This document shows positions 52,361 to 59,713 of a DNA stretch of 64,000 nucleotides, piece by piece (position 1 is the stretch's first letter; each line of letters opens with the position of its first letter). The notes beneath the pieces are model-generated. The model was not told the origin of the DNA, ran no database searches, and saw only the letters and a program-made list of their open reading frames with translations. Both the position numbers and the translations under genes were made by a program. The stretch comes from an uncultured Clostridia bacterium (lineage in GTDB: Bacteria; Bacillota; Clostridia; Lachnospirales; CAG-274): assembly GCA_947585865.1 (NCBI GenBank), contig CANPXH010000005.1, positions 51,615 to 115,614 of the forward strand, written 5' to 3'.

Positions 52361-52594
52361 TTGACAGACATAATCATTTTGGTAGGTGTCTGCGGAGGAC
52401 TATACTGTGTCGGATATATAGGCTATCTTGTATTCAACGCTTTTGTTGTCCGTCAAATCGTAACACACAAGGATATGTCGAATAAAAAGGCGGCAAGTAT
52501 CGCCGAAATCGCCGCACACAGTAAGCCTCCGAAAAACACGCTACAGATATATTCTGTCGTTCGTTGCTTACGCAACTATGAGAGAGCCGATTAA
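52361..52594 (+). CDS. Small membrane protein, family B copy 1
   Basis: TTG start after AAGAAGG; TM segment then FVVRQIVTHKDMSNKKAASIAEIAAHSK, paralogous to 54505-54690. Confidence 0.6.
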   Translation: MTDIIILVGVCGGLYCVGYIGYLVFNAFVVRQIVTHKDMSNKKAASIAEIAAHSKPPKNTLQIYSVVRCLRNYERAD

Positions 52595-54326: not shown

Positions 54327-54504
54327 ATGCACTCCCTTCTTTATGTACCCACAAATATATATTATCATAAGTGGGTACAAATGTCAAGAGGTATTTGGAA
54401 TTTTCTTGACGAAATATTACTATAGTTATAAAATATGTTATTGGGTAGGGAACGACAAAACATAAAAGTAAGAGGTAACACTCTTACGGAAAGGAGGAAG
54501 CCTG

Positions 54505-54690
54505 ATAGAAATTTTTGTGAAAGTTTTTATCAATATAAGCAGTATCGGCGGCATCACTATTGGTATTTGTTACATATGCAATCTGATACTGAAAGGGTTT
54601 GTTGTATGGCAAATCATACATCATAAGGATTTGTCCAACAGTAAGGTCAGAAGTATCGCAAAAATTACAGATGATAATAAAATGTCATAA
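54505..54690 (+). CDS. Small membrane protein, family B copy 2
   Basis: IEIFVKVFINISSIGGITIGICYICNLILKGFVVWQIIHHKDLSNSKVRSIAKITDDNKMS*; ATA start 7 nt after GGAGG, or GTG at 54517. Not in the ORF track. Confidence 0.55.
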   Translation: MEIFVKVFINISSIGGITIGICYICNLILKGFVVWQIIHHKDLSNSKVRSIAKITDDNKMS

Positions 54691-55615: not shown

Positions 55616-55778
55616 ATTACCACAAACGGTGTTGGATATTTCCAATACCGTTTTTTAGTGAAGTAACAGAGGAAAATAGGCAAATATTTATCTCTATTAT
55701 AAGAATTTAAGACAACAAGTATATCCCTTTTAAAAATAAGCAAACTAAATTATAATATGGGAAAGGGGTGTACAAACA

Positions 55779-56129
55779 ATGGAAGATACTGACATTACAA
55801 GGCATATAAAGCAAATATTAGAGGATAAGGGTTGGTCTAATTACAGACTTGCAAAAGAGTCCGGCATACCTAAAGAAACATTAAATAAAATGTTAAGAGA
55901 CAACGCGACCCCTTCTATAAATAGTCTTATCAAAATATGTAAAGGGTTGGGTATATCCGTGTCTCAATTTATGGCGGAAATAGAATTTCCAACACACAGA
56001 CTGGTAGAGTTGAATAAGATATGCAGTCAGTTATCCGAAACAGATAAGCAGCTTGTAAAAGCTTATGTATGTGGATTATTACACAGGCTGCCTAAAGAAA
56101 TACTTGAATTTGGAAGTGAAAAAGAATGA
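55779..56129 (+). CDS. XRE-family HTH regulator
   Basis: IKQILEDKGWSNYRLAKESGIPKETLNKMLRDNATPSINSLIKICKGLGISVSQF. Confidence 0.9.
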   Translation: MEDTDITRHIKQILEDKGWSNYRLAKESGIPKETLNKMLRDNATPSINSLIKICKGLGISVSQFMAEIEFPTHRLVELNKICSQLSETDKQLVKAYVCGLLHRLPKEILEFGSEKE

Positions 56130-56905
56130 TATTTAAAGAACTGCTAGAATTGATGTATGTATATGTAAAGTTTACATCAAAAGAATTGCCTATAAATTGT
56201 TATAATATAGCTACTCAGCAATTAAATATAGTCATAAAAAATAGCCTGCAATGCAAAAATGATTATAAGGCAAGCAGTATTTCCGATACACCATTAAAAG
56301 ATAATGAAGCAATTTATACGTTATATAAAAGCGAATATACTATATATTATGATGAAAAAAATCCATACAGCAATTTCTTTATAGCTCACGAAATAGCACA
56401 TCATTTATTAAATCACCGATCAGACGATATAGATAAACACCACGATGCAAATTTAATGGCTGCTATGATCGTAGCTCCGCCACACCTTATTAAAAAGAAT
56501 AAAATACATAACAGCCTGCAACTGGCAACAGTATGTAAAATTCCTTCGGAAGTTGCCGAGACATATTGGAAAGCATACAAAAAGGTATATCTGCAATCAC
56601 ACCGTTATGCTATACTGAAATATGCGGGTATTGTCCTTTCTATTACAATATTGACTTTGGGTGGTATATTTATAGGGTATAGAACAATAATCCCTATACA
56701 CACGCAAAATGGCTATAATAATATGCAATCAGAAATAAGGAAAGATGCAGAAGATAACACTCTCGTCTACGTTACAAAATCGGGGAAGAAATATCATACG
56801 GAAAATTGTGTATATATAAAGGATAAAAGCAATATTACGGAGATAAGCGTTGATGATGCGGAAATATTGGGATATGAGAAGTGTAATGTGTGTTTTCAAG
56901 AATAA
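56126..56905 (+). CDS. ImmA/IrrE-like metallopeptidase with TM segment and C-terminal Cys domain
   Basis: FFIAHEIAHHLLNH (HExxH), TM YAGIVLSITILTLGGIFIGY, C-terminal TKSGKKYHTENCVYI...GYEKCNVCFQ. Confidence 0.85.
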   Translation: MIFKELLELMYVYVKFTSKELPINCYNIATQQLNIVIKNSLQCKNDYKASSISDTPLKDNEAIYTLYKSEYTIYYDEKNPYSNFFIAHEIAHHLLNHRSDDIDKHHDANLMAAMIVAPPHLIKKNKIHNSLQLATVCKIPSEVAETYWKAYKKVYLQSHRYAILKYAGIVLSITILTLGGIFIGYRTIIPIHTQNGYNNMQSEIRKDAEDNTLVYVTKSGKKYHTENCVYIKDKSNITEISVDDAEILGYEKCNVCFQE

Positions 56906-56947: not shown

Positions 56948-56995
56948 TTTTATAATATTTTTGTTAAAATTTCCGTTATTTATGATATAATAAAA

Positions 56996-57160
56996 AATAC
57001 GGAGCGGCTATCCTATGTGAAAGTGAGGCGAATTATGCCTATCCTTATAACAAGGTAAAGTCAAGCCGTTCCGTATTATTACTTTATATCTTCTTATGAC
57101 CTGCCTTATTGGGAAAGGGGTATTTCTTCAAAAAATCAGGTTTTAGGGATATAAGGAGGG
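56996..57160 (+). ncRNA. Structured RNA leader of unit 2
   Basis: TATAAT at 56986-56991; 14-bp stem AATACGGAGCGGCT/AGCCGTTCCGTATT (56996-57009/57064-57077); GAAAGTGAGGCGAA motif; CCTTATAACAAGG hairpin; CTTCTTAT/ATAAGGAG over the SD. Confidence 0.65.
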
Positions 57161-57167
57161 TTTGTAT

Positions 57168-57359
57168 ATCGCAGAAGATATAAAGAACCTCCTGTTGTTT
57201 ATGCTTGGATCGTACGGAAGACAAATATTATTTTTGTGTGGCTGTACCAATGACATTATGGCATTTGTAATTATTTTGATTTTATACATAATAATAACAT
57301 CTGTCTTTGAAGTAAAGCATAACATAACAGGTAACACCGATACTGCCCAAAATAATTAG
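57168..57359 (+). CDS. Small hydrophobic protein of unit 2
   Basis: (ATC or TTG57162 start) AEDIKNLLLFMLGSYGRQILFLCGCTNDIMAFVIILILYIIIT..., paralogous to unit 3. Confidence 0.6.
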   Translation: MAEDIKNLLLFMLGSYGRQILFLCGCTNDIMAFVIILILYIIITSVFEVKHNITGNTDTAQNN

Positions 57360-57373
57360 GTGTAGTATCACAT

Positions 57374-57404
57374 AGAAGCGAGGTTTATAATCTCGCTTCT
57401 TTTG
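57374..57404 (+). terminator. Terminator of unit 2
   Basis: GAAGCGAGGTTTATAATCTCGCTTCTTTTG. Confidence 0.8.
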
Positions 57405-57475
57405 TTTGCAATAATATATTCTTGAATAGAAAAAATATTTTTATTAAAATTTTCCATAAATTATGATATAATAAA

Positions 57476-57648
57476 ACAGTACAGACTATTTAAACCAAGC
57501 GAAAGTGAGGCGAACTGTGCAGTTTCCTATAAAAAAGGATAATTCAATAGCACAAATAAGTCTGTACTGTTTTTTATTTTCTATAGCTCCCTGCGTTGGG
57601 GAAGGGGTGCTTATTACCAAAAATAAGGTATATGGGTGCAGGGAGGAA
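57476..57648 (+). ncRNA. Structured RNA leader of unit 3
   Basis: TATAAT at 57467-57472; perfect 12-bp stem ACAGTACAGACT/AGTCTGTACTGT (57476-57487/57559-57570) followed by T6; GAAAGTGAGGCGAA motif; CTCCCTGC/GCAGGGAG stem covering GGAGG. Confidence 0.68.
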
Positions 57649-57653
57649 AGCCT

Positions 57654-57788
57654 ATAGAAAATACCAAAGACTTTCTGTTGTTTGCCTTGGGCACATGGGG
57701 ATGGTCAATACTCAAAAAGTATGGCTATGATGATAAATGTATTATGTTCATCATGATTTTGCTGTACATAATTATAATTTTATATTAA
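57654..57788 (+). CDS. Small hydrophobic protein of unit 3, missing from the ORF track
   Basis: ATA start 7 nt after GGAGG: IENTKDFLLFALGTWGWSILKKYGYDDKCIMFIMILLYIIIILY*, paralogous to unit 2. Confidence 0.6.
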   Translation: MENTKDFLLFALGTWGWSILKKYGYDDKCIMFIMILLYIIIILY

Positions 57789-57828
57789 CATATGTATTGA
57801 CGCTCCTATGAACAGAAAGATTTTTGTA

Positions 57829-57858
57829 AGAAGGGCTGTGCAAACAGCCTTTCTTTTT
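57829..57858 (+). terminator. Terminator of unit 3
   Basis: AGAAGGGCTGTGCAAACAGCCTTTCTTTTTTT. Confidence 0.8.
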
Positions 57859-57947
57859 TTGTTTACAATAATATATTCCCGAAAGGGAGAATGTTTTTCT
57901 TGAAAATTTTCCGCGGGACGGATAAAATTCCTCTTTTATTGCAAAGA

Positions 57948-58018
57948 AAAAGAGCCGCTTAGTGCGGCTCTTTTTCCTTTTGTTTTATGAACATATCAAA
58001 AAACAAAATCGATTTTGG
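57948..58018 (-). ncRNA. Putative minus-strand small RNA
   Basis: Minus-strand promoter TTGACA (58054-58049) - 17 nt - TATAAT (58031-58026); terminator AAAAAGAGCCGCACTAAGCGGCTCTTTTT. Confidence 0.55.
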
Positions 58019-58163: not shown

Positions 58164-58532
58164 TTATTCGTATTCTTTTTCCGGCAGATTAGCTATAATA
58201 CGAGCTAGGCGGGCGGCTTCTATGTAATTTCCGTTGTCATATGCCTCACCCCATAGACCATACTCACCGACTATACAATTACCTTTTCCTGATCCGCCGT
58301 TCCATTGTAAAGGACAAACATCGCACACATTTTCTATTTTGTCACAAAATCTGTTATATATACAACTACTGTAATCGCACAGAAAACAGTCGCTGTCTAC
58401 TATTATCCCCTCAAAGTATTTGTTCAGATATATACGTTTATGGACGGGAATACATAATCTTTCCGACTCATCAGCTATCCAGTTCCACATTTTGCGATGT
58501 TCTTGGATAGCTCTGTAATGTGTTAATTGCAT
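58164..58532 (-). CDS. Cys-rich hypothetical protein
   Basis: CFLCDYSSCIYNRFCDKIENVCDVCPLQWNGGSGKGNC. Confidence 0.6.
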   Translation of the reverse strand: MQLTHYRAIQEHRKMWNWIADESERLCIPVHKRIYLNKYFEGIIVDSDCFLCDYSSCIYNRFCDKIENVCDVCPLQWNGGSGKGNCIVGEYGLWGEAYDNGNYIEAARLARIIANLPEKEYE

Positions 58533-59713
58533 TATTTTCCCTCCTTGGTATGTATTTGGTATTCAAAGTTTTGCCACATATTTTCATTTTTTACATTTAT
58601 GGGGCATATACAGCACTCATAATTTTCCGCTGTAAAGAAAACATTTGACCTCATATAGCTGATATAGAATTTGACCTTATCTTGGTGTAATGAAGCGGGT
58701 ATTTTGAGGAAATCCAATATAAATTTTCCGTCAAGGGCGACCTTGCGCTCTGTATTCATTCTATCGTATTCGGGTTGGATCCCGATATTGTCTAAAATTT
58801 CCATCTGAGAACATACATAATAAAGGTAAAGCTTGTTATCTGTCGGTATTGACATAAGTATTTCCAGCTTGTCCGATTTATCCCTTACGTCATTGTAATA
58901 GGATATTATTTCCTGTAGTTCCTTCGTGTCGAGGGTATAGACATTTTTATCGGAAATTGAATTGAAAATGTGGGAGGTGCCCATATAGCTGCCTTCTGCG
59001 TTGATATGGTAATATTCAAAGGTATTTCCCTTTATACATATATAACCTCTATGCTTTTCGCTGCGTTCCTTGCTTATGGAAAGTGTTATATTATTTTCCG
59101 ACGTTTTGTCAAGAGCTTTCTTTAAATGCTCTATGGCGTCGGCAGGTATCATAAAGGATATATCTTCTTTGAAATTTTCCAATGTGAACCTTCTGCGCAG
59201 CGCGCAGGCTCCGTTTACCGCTTCTATACACATATCGGCAGAATTGACGTTAAGATTCTCTAATGCGGTTCTGAATATATCCTTTTTTGTAAAGAGCTTT
59301 AAATTATTTATAGTTTCCGTAAAGTCCTTTTCCGTAAGGGTCATAACGTCTGTAAATTCATCATGAGGAGGACATAAAACGGTTTCGTCTATTTCCATTG
59401 CGGCTACTTTTACGGTTCTATTTCCCGTATGTACTAATATATATGTTCCATCGTTTTCTATGGTTATACGCGCTGTTTTGGCTTTAAGTACGGCCTTTAT
59501 ATTGTCAAGTGTAAAGGCTATGGTTCCGCTGCTTTCGATTTCCGCATGGTCAAGGCGCTTTACAAAGAAATGGTCGTAATGCCATACTATAACGGATAAG
59601 CCGTGATTTTCCGCCTTGATGTATATGCGGTCAAGTCCTGCGGTTTTGTCTACGGCGGGAAGTACCGCCTGTATAGCCTGTGTGAGCTCCTTTGTATTTG
59701 TTGCGAATTTCAT
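58532..59713 (-). CDS. DNA polymerase III beta (sliding clamp)-like protein
   Basis: MKFATNTKELTQAIQAVLPAVD; clamp-like repeats, IPADAIEHLKKAL, LDGKFILDFLKIPASL, C-terminal CICPINVKN. Confidence 0.7.
   Translation of the reverse strand: MKFATNTKELTQAIQAVLPAVDKTAGLDRIYIKAENHGLSVIVWHYDHFFVKRLDHAEIESSGTIAFTLDNIKAVLKAKTARITIENDGTYILVHTGNRTVKVAAMEIDETVLCPPHDEFTDVMTLTEKDFTETINNLKLFTKKDIFRTALENLNVNSADMCIEAVNGACALRRRFTLENFKEDISFMIPADAIEHLKKALDKTSENNITLSISKERSEKHRGYICIKGNTFEYYHINAEGSYMGTSHIFNSISDKNVYTLDTKELQEIISYYNDVRDKSDKLEILMSIPTDNKLYLYYVCSQMEILDNIGIQPEYDRMNTERKVALDGKFILDFLKIPASLHQDKVKFYISYMRSNVFFTAENYECCICPINVKNENMWQNFEYQIHTKEGK

Follow-up and report, generated by a model that had tools for sequence, protein, structure and literature searches.

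Tandem mobile-element units with structured leaders that may block translation of toxin-like membrane micropeptides in an uncultured Clostridia bacterium

Analysis of a 64,000-nt stretch of a contig from an uncultured Clostridia bacterium (hereafter, the window) revealed two paralogous genes in tandem within a mobile element that is probably a prophage. We propose, with a probability of about 0.5, that these genes encode toxin-like two-helix membrane micropeptides whose translation is blocked by their own leaders. Computational evidence for this reading includes (i) promoters and terminators identified by consensus, (ii) leader structure with compensatory base changes, (iii) purifying selection on the peptides, and (iv) a predicted hairpin fold of the second peptide. 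The original prediction, made from the letters of this DNA, described a structured RNA that controls a membrane peptide and was not recognised as a known family. This description agrees with the compensatory changes and purifying selection, and with the lack of both an Rfam match at gathering score and any protein-family match.

Organization of the tandem units and their peptides

The two units are arranged head to tail on the plus strand, unit A at approximately 56986-57400 and unit B at approximately 57467-57855, and are flanked by an M78-type gene (56126-56905) and a beta-clamp-like gene on the minus strand (58532-59713). The predicted shared layout was borne out, and its promoters, stems, motifs and terminators were all located. 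In both units, an extended -10 promoter is followed by a 5'-terminal closed stem (element 1) with motif 1 (GAAAGTGAGGCGAA) inside it. Next come motif 2 (TTGGGRAAGGGGT) and a region of predicted structure (element 2) that contains the Shine-Dalgarno site and the start, and each unit closes with a hydrophobic micro-ORF and its terminator. The individual features are as follows:

56964-56991, plus strand: unit A promoter, TTAAAA, 16 nt, extended -10 TGaTATAAT (10 of 12 consensus matches)
56996-57077, plus strand: unit A element 1, predicted 5'-terminal closed stem-loop a few nt past the -10 box (z -4.35)
57019-57032, plus strand: motif 1, GAAAGTGAGGCGAA, inside unit A element 1 (exact copy)
57084-57190, plus strand: unit A element 2, predicted structure covering the Shine-Dalgarno site (57153-57159) and the start region (z -2.68)
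57109-57121, plus strand: motif 2 of unit A, TTGGGAAAGGGGT, a purine run resembling a Shine-Dalgarno sequence, some 45 nt ahead of the true site
57162-57359, plus strand: unit A hydrophobic peptide ORF, 65 aa from TTG 57162 or 63 aa from ATC 57168
57374-57400, plus strand: unit A intrinsic terminator
57409-57472, plus strand: upstream block CAATAATATATTC...AAAATTTTCC and unit B promoter (-10 box 57467-57472)
57476-57575, plus strand: unit B element 1, predicted closed stem running into a run of six T (T6, 57570-57575; z -5.02)
57501-57514, plus strand: motif 1, GAAAGTGAGGCGAA, of unit B (exact copy)
57573-57668, plus strand: unit B element 2, predicted long stem in which the start region and the Shine-Dalgarno site GGGAGG (57641-57646) are buried (z -3.12)
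57596-57608, plus strand: motif 2 of unit B, TTGGGGAAGGGGT
57636-57788, plus strand: unit B peptide ORF, 50 aa from GTG 57636 or 44 aa from ATA 57654
57828-57855, plus strand: unit B intrinsic terminator

The TATAAT -10 boxes of both units (56986-56991 in A, 57467-57472 in B) are preceded by TG. On the minus strand, no terminator was found within units A and B, and the best promoter-like sites in the window have only 9 of 12 consensus matches, i.e. are weak. A dyad upstream of B (TATTCnnGAATA) was discarded, as it occurs at chance frequency.

Orthologues of both units (A' and B') with the same neighbours as in the window were found in another genome of the genus, G004. Approximately 7.6 kb upstream of A', that genome carries a divergent third unit, U0, which keeps the layout, lacks motif 1, and starts with ATG. 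The upstream block of unit B also precedes B', and less perfect copies of it precede A' and follow B. The orphan block after unit B (57866-57928) contains TTGAAA-17-TAAAAT and has a strong terminator directly behind it (57946-57976); it may be what is left of a third tandem unit, or it may give a very short transcript. An extra module was observed upstream of A' (L004:1240-1410 in G004), comprising an inverted repeat GTGTTGCA/TGCAACAC, a Shine-Dalgarno site, a short GTG ORF and a terminator; it is absent from the window.

The peptides of A and B are about 45% identical, and those of U0 and A' are related to them. Comparison of the two genomes gave a dN/dS of 0.24 for A/A' (dN 0.27, dS 1.13) and 0.22 for B/B'. 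Such ratios indicate purifying selection, and thus, on sequence grounds, both reading frames are most likely translated. Neither ORF has ATG, GTG or TTG at a normal Shine-Dalgarno spacing: TTG 57162 of unit A is too close, GTG 57636 of unit B lies inside the stem, and alignment with the ATG of U0 points to ATC 57168 as the start of A. The assignment of the start codons is ambiguous, and initiation may occur at non-AUG codons. AlphaFold models peptide B alone as a two-helix hairpin (helices 2-22 and 27-43, pLDDT 88). The C-terminal segments of the peptides are hydrophobic, and the net charge is near neutral. Peptides B (44-50 aa) and U0 (about 49 aa) are hydrophobic membrane peptides of less than 60 aa, and A (63-65 aa) is slightly longer. 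In Pfam, PHROGs, NCBIfam and PADLOC, they matched no family and no type I toxin model, and no known type I toxin family emerged as homologous.

A further pair of small membrane proteins, which are relatives of one another and have no Pfam match, is encoded at 52361-52594 (FVVRQIVTHKDMSNKKAASIAEI) and 54493-54690 (FVVWQIIHHKDLSNSKVRSIAKI). The latter ORF has AAAGGAGGAAGCCTGATAGAA at its start and no ATG, as in unit B. It is probably what the original prediction counted as a first unit of the series; it belongs to another peptide family.

Leader structure and the ribosome-binding site

In A, A', B, B' and U0, the stem of element 1 begins a few nucleotides after the -10 box. None of 200 shuffles folded as well as element 1 of A or of B, and element 1 of U0 (z -2.71) surpassed 197 of 200. 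The arms of the closing stem are 56996-57009 with 57064-57077 in A and 57476-57487 with 57559-57570 in B. These stems had been described as unrelated in sequence with pairing retained, and this is true in part: in an alignment of A, A', B and B' in a shared register, 5 of 14 pairs have two-sided changes, 7 are invariant, and the other 2 do not pair in B and B'. Paired cells make up 91% of the closing stem, a value that falls to 26-60% when the 3' partners are shifted by 1-3 columns. The sample consists of four motif-bearing copies and one divergent copy from two genomes, essentially two independent lineages (A versus B), and hence we regard the covariation as good rather than strong. The leaders are 92-97% identical between the two genomes. 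Leader A is 92% identical to that of A', whereas ORF A is only 70% identical; either the leader is constrained or gene conversion has acted locally.

The 14-nt motif 1 is identical in the two units, as claimed, and has no other site on either strand of the 2.58-Mb genome, even when up to one mismatch is allowed. Its complement (up to one mismatch) likewise has no site in the genome besides those of motif 1 itself. A and B are paralogous and their leaders are about 60% identical, so that the identity is less striking than it appears; by our estimate, about 0.06 identical runs of 14 columns are expected between the two leaders. The identity of motif 1 is therefore suggestive and not decisive.

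Element 2 folds beyond shuffled sequences (z -2.1 to -3.1). The Shine-Dalgarno site is unpaired with a mean probability of 0.075 in A, 0.145 in A', 0.18 in B and B' (0.184 in B), and 0.36 in U0. Among 31 control ORFs of the window, the median is 0.38 and the 10% quantile 0.05, which places A near the low end, B at a moderate level and U0 in the ordinary range. A stem over the Shine-Dalgarno site had been predicted for both units. In B, as in U0, the site is hidden by a 5' arm that also covers the start region; in the minimum-energy fold of A, the Shine-Dalgarno and start region pair mainly inside the ORF, with its first codons. Structure that blocks the ribosome site is a common, though not universal, trait of type I toxin mRNAs, and the modelled folds have it, with moderate occlusion relative to the controls.

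The two copies of TTGGGRAAGGGGT (57109-57121 and 57596-57608) are exact. In predicted folds of prefixes that lack the true Shine-Dalgarno site, this G-rich motif pairs with the arm that otherwise hides the site, which suggests that motif 2 is a competitor for the hiding arm or a standby site. A sequence with one mismatch to motif 2, ATGGGAAAGGGGT, occupies the Shine-Dalgarno position (55757-55769) of the HTH gene at 55779, and its placement supports motif 2 as a ribosome-site-like sequence. An upstream ORF beginning at motif 2 was considered and rejected, as by eye its start and frame differ between A and A'.

No strand exchange between elements 1 and 2 was apparent. Pairing of the element 1 interior with the linker and loop of its own element 2 surpassed mononucleotide shuffles in A and A' (fractions 0.007 and 0.000, respectively) and was worse than shuffles in B and B'. 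Even in A and A', this signal vanished with the whole element 1, with dinucleotide shuffles, and with the whole mRNA. A pseudoknot or self-antisense between the two elements was thus rejected as a shared mechanism, since it appears only against mononucleotide shuffles in A and A' and is missing in B.

We propose that each unit would be transcribed from its own extended -10 promoter up to its own terminator, yielding an mRNA that would open with a stem-loop whose closing helix lies at or near the predicted 5' end. This stem-loop may protect the RNA, serve as a platform for ribosome loading, or both. Since predicted stable stems hold the Shine-Dalgarno site and the start region, the peptide would by default be poorly translated. 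Motif 2 (TTGGGRAAGGGGT) may act as a standby ribosome site or compete for the hiding arm, and translation may be permitted only in one of the folds or after a trigger. The peptide itself may contribute to maintenance or immunity of the element, as prophage type I toxins do.

Mobile-element context and distribution

The element in the window encodes two tyrosine recombinases, cI-like HTH proteins, DNA methyltransferases and a beta clamp. The ImmA/M78-type gene at 56126-56905 has weak Pfam and PHROG matches; in the protein, the C-terminal domain TKSGKKYHTENCVYIKDKSN...GYEKCNVC (residues 203-257) matches phrog_14556. Downstream of the units, the G004 contig encodes an RdRP-family polymerase, a tyrosine recombinase, a weak match to a portal protein and a tail tape protein. 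The polymerase, a 933-codon YonO-like protein with a PF05183 match (4e-13) and the LDVDGD motif, is encoded at L092:9650-12448 of contig C1, about 13 kb past B', and adjoins phage integrase, portal-like and tail genes. From these genes, the element is probably a prophage, and the YonO-like polymerase presumably points to an SPbeta-like one. The source genome of the window (G000) has no RdRP match, and its contig stops 6 kb past unit B, before the corresponding region, so that the prophage label rests on G004.

Among 60 relatives, the two-motif pattern was found only in G004, where it occurs twice. When 85,462 species genomes were scanned for exact matches to both motifs, 24 loci were returned, of which only one (L055) is real; it lies on the G004 contig, which is assigned in that scan to the uncultured Clostridia bacterium 'Lapin-030 bin20'. 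The other 23 loci were each read and judged to be chance matches, as were the two found in viral contigs. Homologues sought with a covariance model in 48 genomes of the family and 392 of the class were limited, among the matches examined, to G000 and G004; the best outsider (38 bits) falls within a pheS-like coding sequence. A peptide HMM gave good scores only in the same two genomes among 392 genomes of the order. Searches with the peptide and the leader against phages and plasmids gave no credible match, and the beta clamp used as bait found nothing in viral contigs. By these sequence searches, the units form a family absent from the catalogues and confined so far to two genomes of one genus.

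Comparison with known systems and alternative explanations

Translation of E. coli tisB requires a 5' structure and a distant standby site (PMC7708055). The units resemble tisB/IstR-1 in the long structured leader, the sequestered ribosome site, the upstream standby region and the 5' structure (PMC7708055), whereas tisB needs processing to the +42 form and has an antitoxin RNA, and its peptide is unrelated in our family searches. In enterobacterial timP, the mRNA undergoes no processing, its Shine-Dalgarno site is occluded, and the 5' stem-loop SL1 is required (PMC11228461). With timP/TimR, the units share a small membrane peptide, an unprocessed mRNA with its Shine-Dalgarno site in a predicted stem-loop, a distant 5'-terminal stem-loop upstream and competing folds (PMC11228461), but neither homology nor an antisense RNA was found here, and no pseudoknot between elements 1 and 2 is common to the units. 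C. difficile prophages use type I toxins of 34-47 aa for their maintenance (PMC7699646). These toxins (CD0977.1/RCd11 and others) are similar in their Clostridia prophage setting, hydrophobic peptides and long 5' UTRs (PMC7699646); they differ in having convergent overlapping antitoxin RNAs and lysine-rich C-termini (PMC6563280), neither of which was found in the units.

Screening against Rfam for a known family gave no match at gathering score in the 64-kb window, and sub-threshold matches only around the units. The best score in the region is that of RatA (RF01776; minus strand, 57778-57870, over the terminator of B), which at 30.3 bits and E 0.094 falls far short of the gathering score of 49; in addition, the peptide matches no type I toxin model, which separates the units from RatA/TxpA. 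Altogether, no antisense antitoxin is evident, and so the data support units that work like toxin mRNAs and do not support membership in the type I toxin-antitoxin systems. The original type I suggestion holds by analogy only, through the hydrophobic peptide, the occluded Shine-Dalgarno site, the 5' stem-loop and the mobile location.

Element 1 could instead be the sensor of a leader that responds to a ligand or protein, with motif 1 as the core and a stabilised closing stem that terminates transcription at T6 (in B) or alters translation. An identical motif within a stem of compensated pairs and leaders more conserved between genomes than ORF A would suit such a leader, as would T6 behind the closing stem, which is seen, as predicted for the second copy, in B and B' only. 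Unit A lacks a T run, however, and the attenuator proposed earlier fits only B; moreover, a terminator with a loop of 70 nt would be unusually large, strand exchange between the elements is not apparent, no Rfam family matches, and an identity of 14 nt is not very improbable between paralogues about 60% identical. A riboswitch-type core conserved across species and contexts was not found: motif 1 is absent from U0 and from all searched genomes outside the genus, and all copies that bear it are from G000 or G004 and accompany one and the same family of peptides. The earlier ligand-sensing proposal accordingly gained no direct support, and nothing beyond the identity of motif 1 speaks for an aptamer. 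We consider a sensing leader unlikely, though it comes first among the alternatives. Its specific form, in which element 1 with the GAAAGTGAGGCGAA core would be a new kind of sensor RNA that responds to a ligand, or to a protein of the host or phage, and would gate a prophage peptide through the closing stem and the Shine-Dalgarno switch, without antisense RNA and possibly from a non-AUG start, is distinctly unlikely.

Also unlikely is a non-toxic membrane peptide of the element, serving superinfection exclusion, immunity or signalling, with an ordinary stabilising 5' UTR and motifs shared by common descent. The neighbouring cI-like regulators and M78-type gene, the near-neutral charge under purifying selection, and the repeated upstream block, which shows recent tandem duplication, fit this explanation, but it leaves the stem-held Shine-Dalgarno and start region and the weak start codons unexplained. 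It is quite improbable that element 1 forms an RNA of its own, either an antitoxin or a regulatory sRNA, with the peptide produced by read-through as in a type III layout. The units do resemble ToxIN in the order of structured RNA, terminator (in B only) and protein; T6 directly follows the closing stem in B and B', and the element 1 interior of A and A' pairs with its own element 2 above mononucleotide shuffles. Type III systems, however, are defined by tandem antitoxin repeats and an endoribonuclease (PMC5086642), and here there are no repeats, the ORF encodes a hydrophobic micropeptide rather than an endoribonuclease, and the pairing is missing in B and B' and lost with dinucleotide shuffles and the whole mRNA. 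A feature acting at the DNA level (a mobile inverted-repeat element, cruciform or protein-binding repeat) hardly deserves credence: tandem copies of the 12-14 bp inverted repeats do lie next to an upstream block that is itself repeated, but the inverted repeats vary in sequence between copies while pairing is kept, and they lie on the transcribed strand directly downstream of strong promoters, only in these gene units.

The general reach of the preferred reading, toxin-like peptides blocked by their own leaders, is limited by the narrow distribution in two genomes of one genus. If true, it would define a lineage of prophage toxin-like peptides under the control of their own leader fold, dissimilar to catalogued toxin and RNA families. 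The units would then provide a Gram-positive counterpart to the idea derived from tisB and timP, in which a distant 5' structure governs an occluded ribosome site, and a test case for leader control without an antisense antitoxin.
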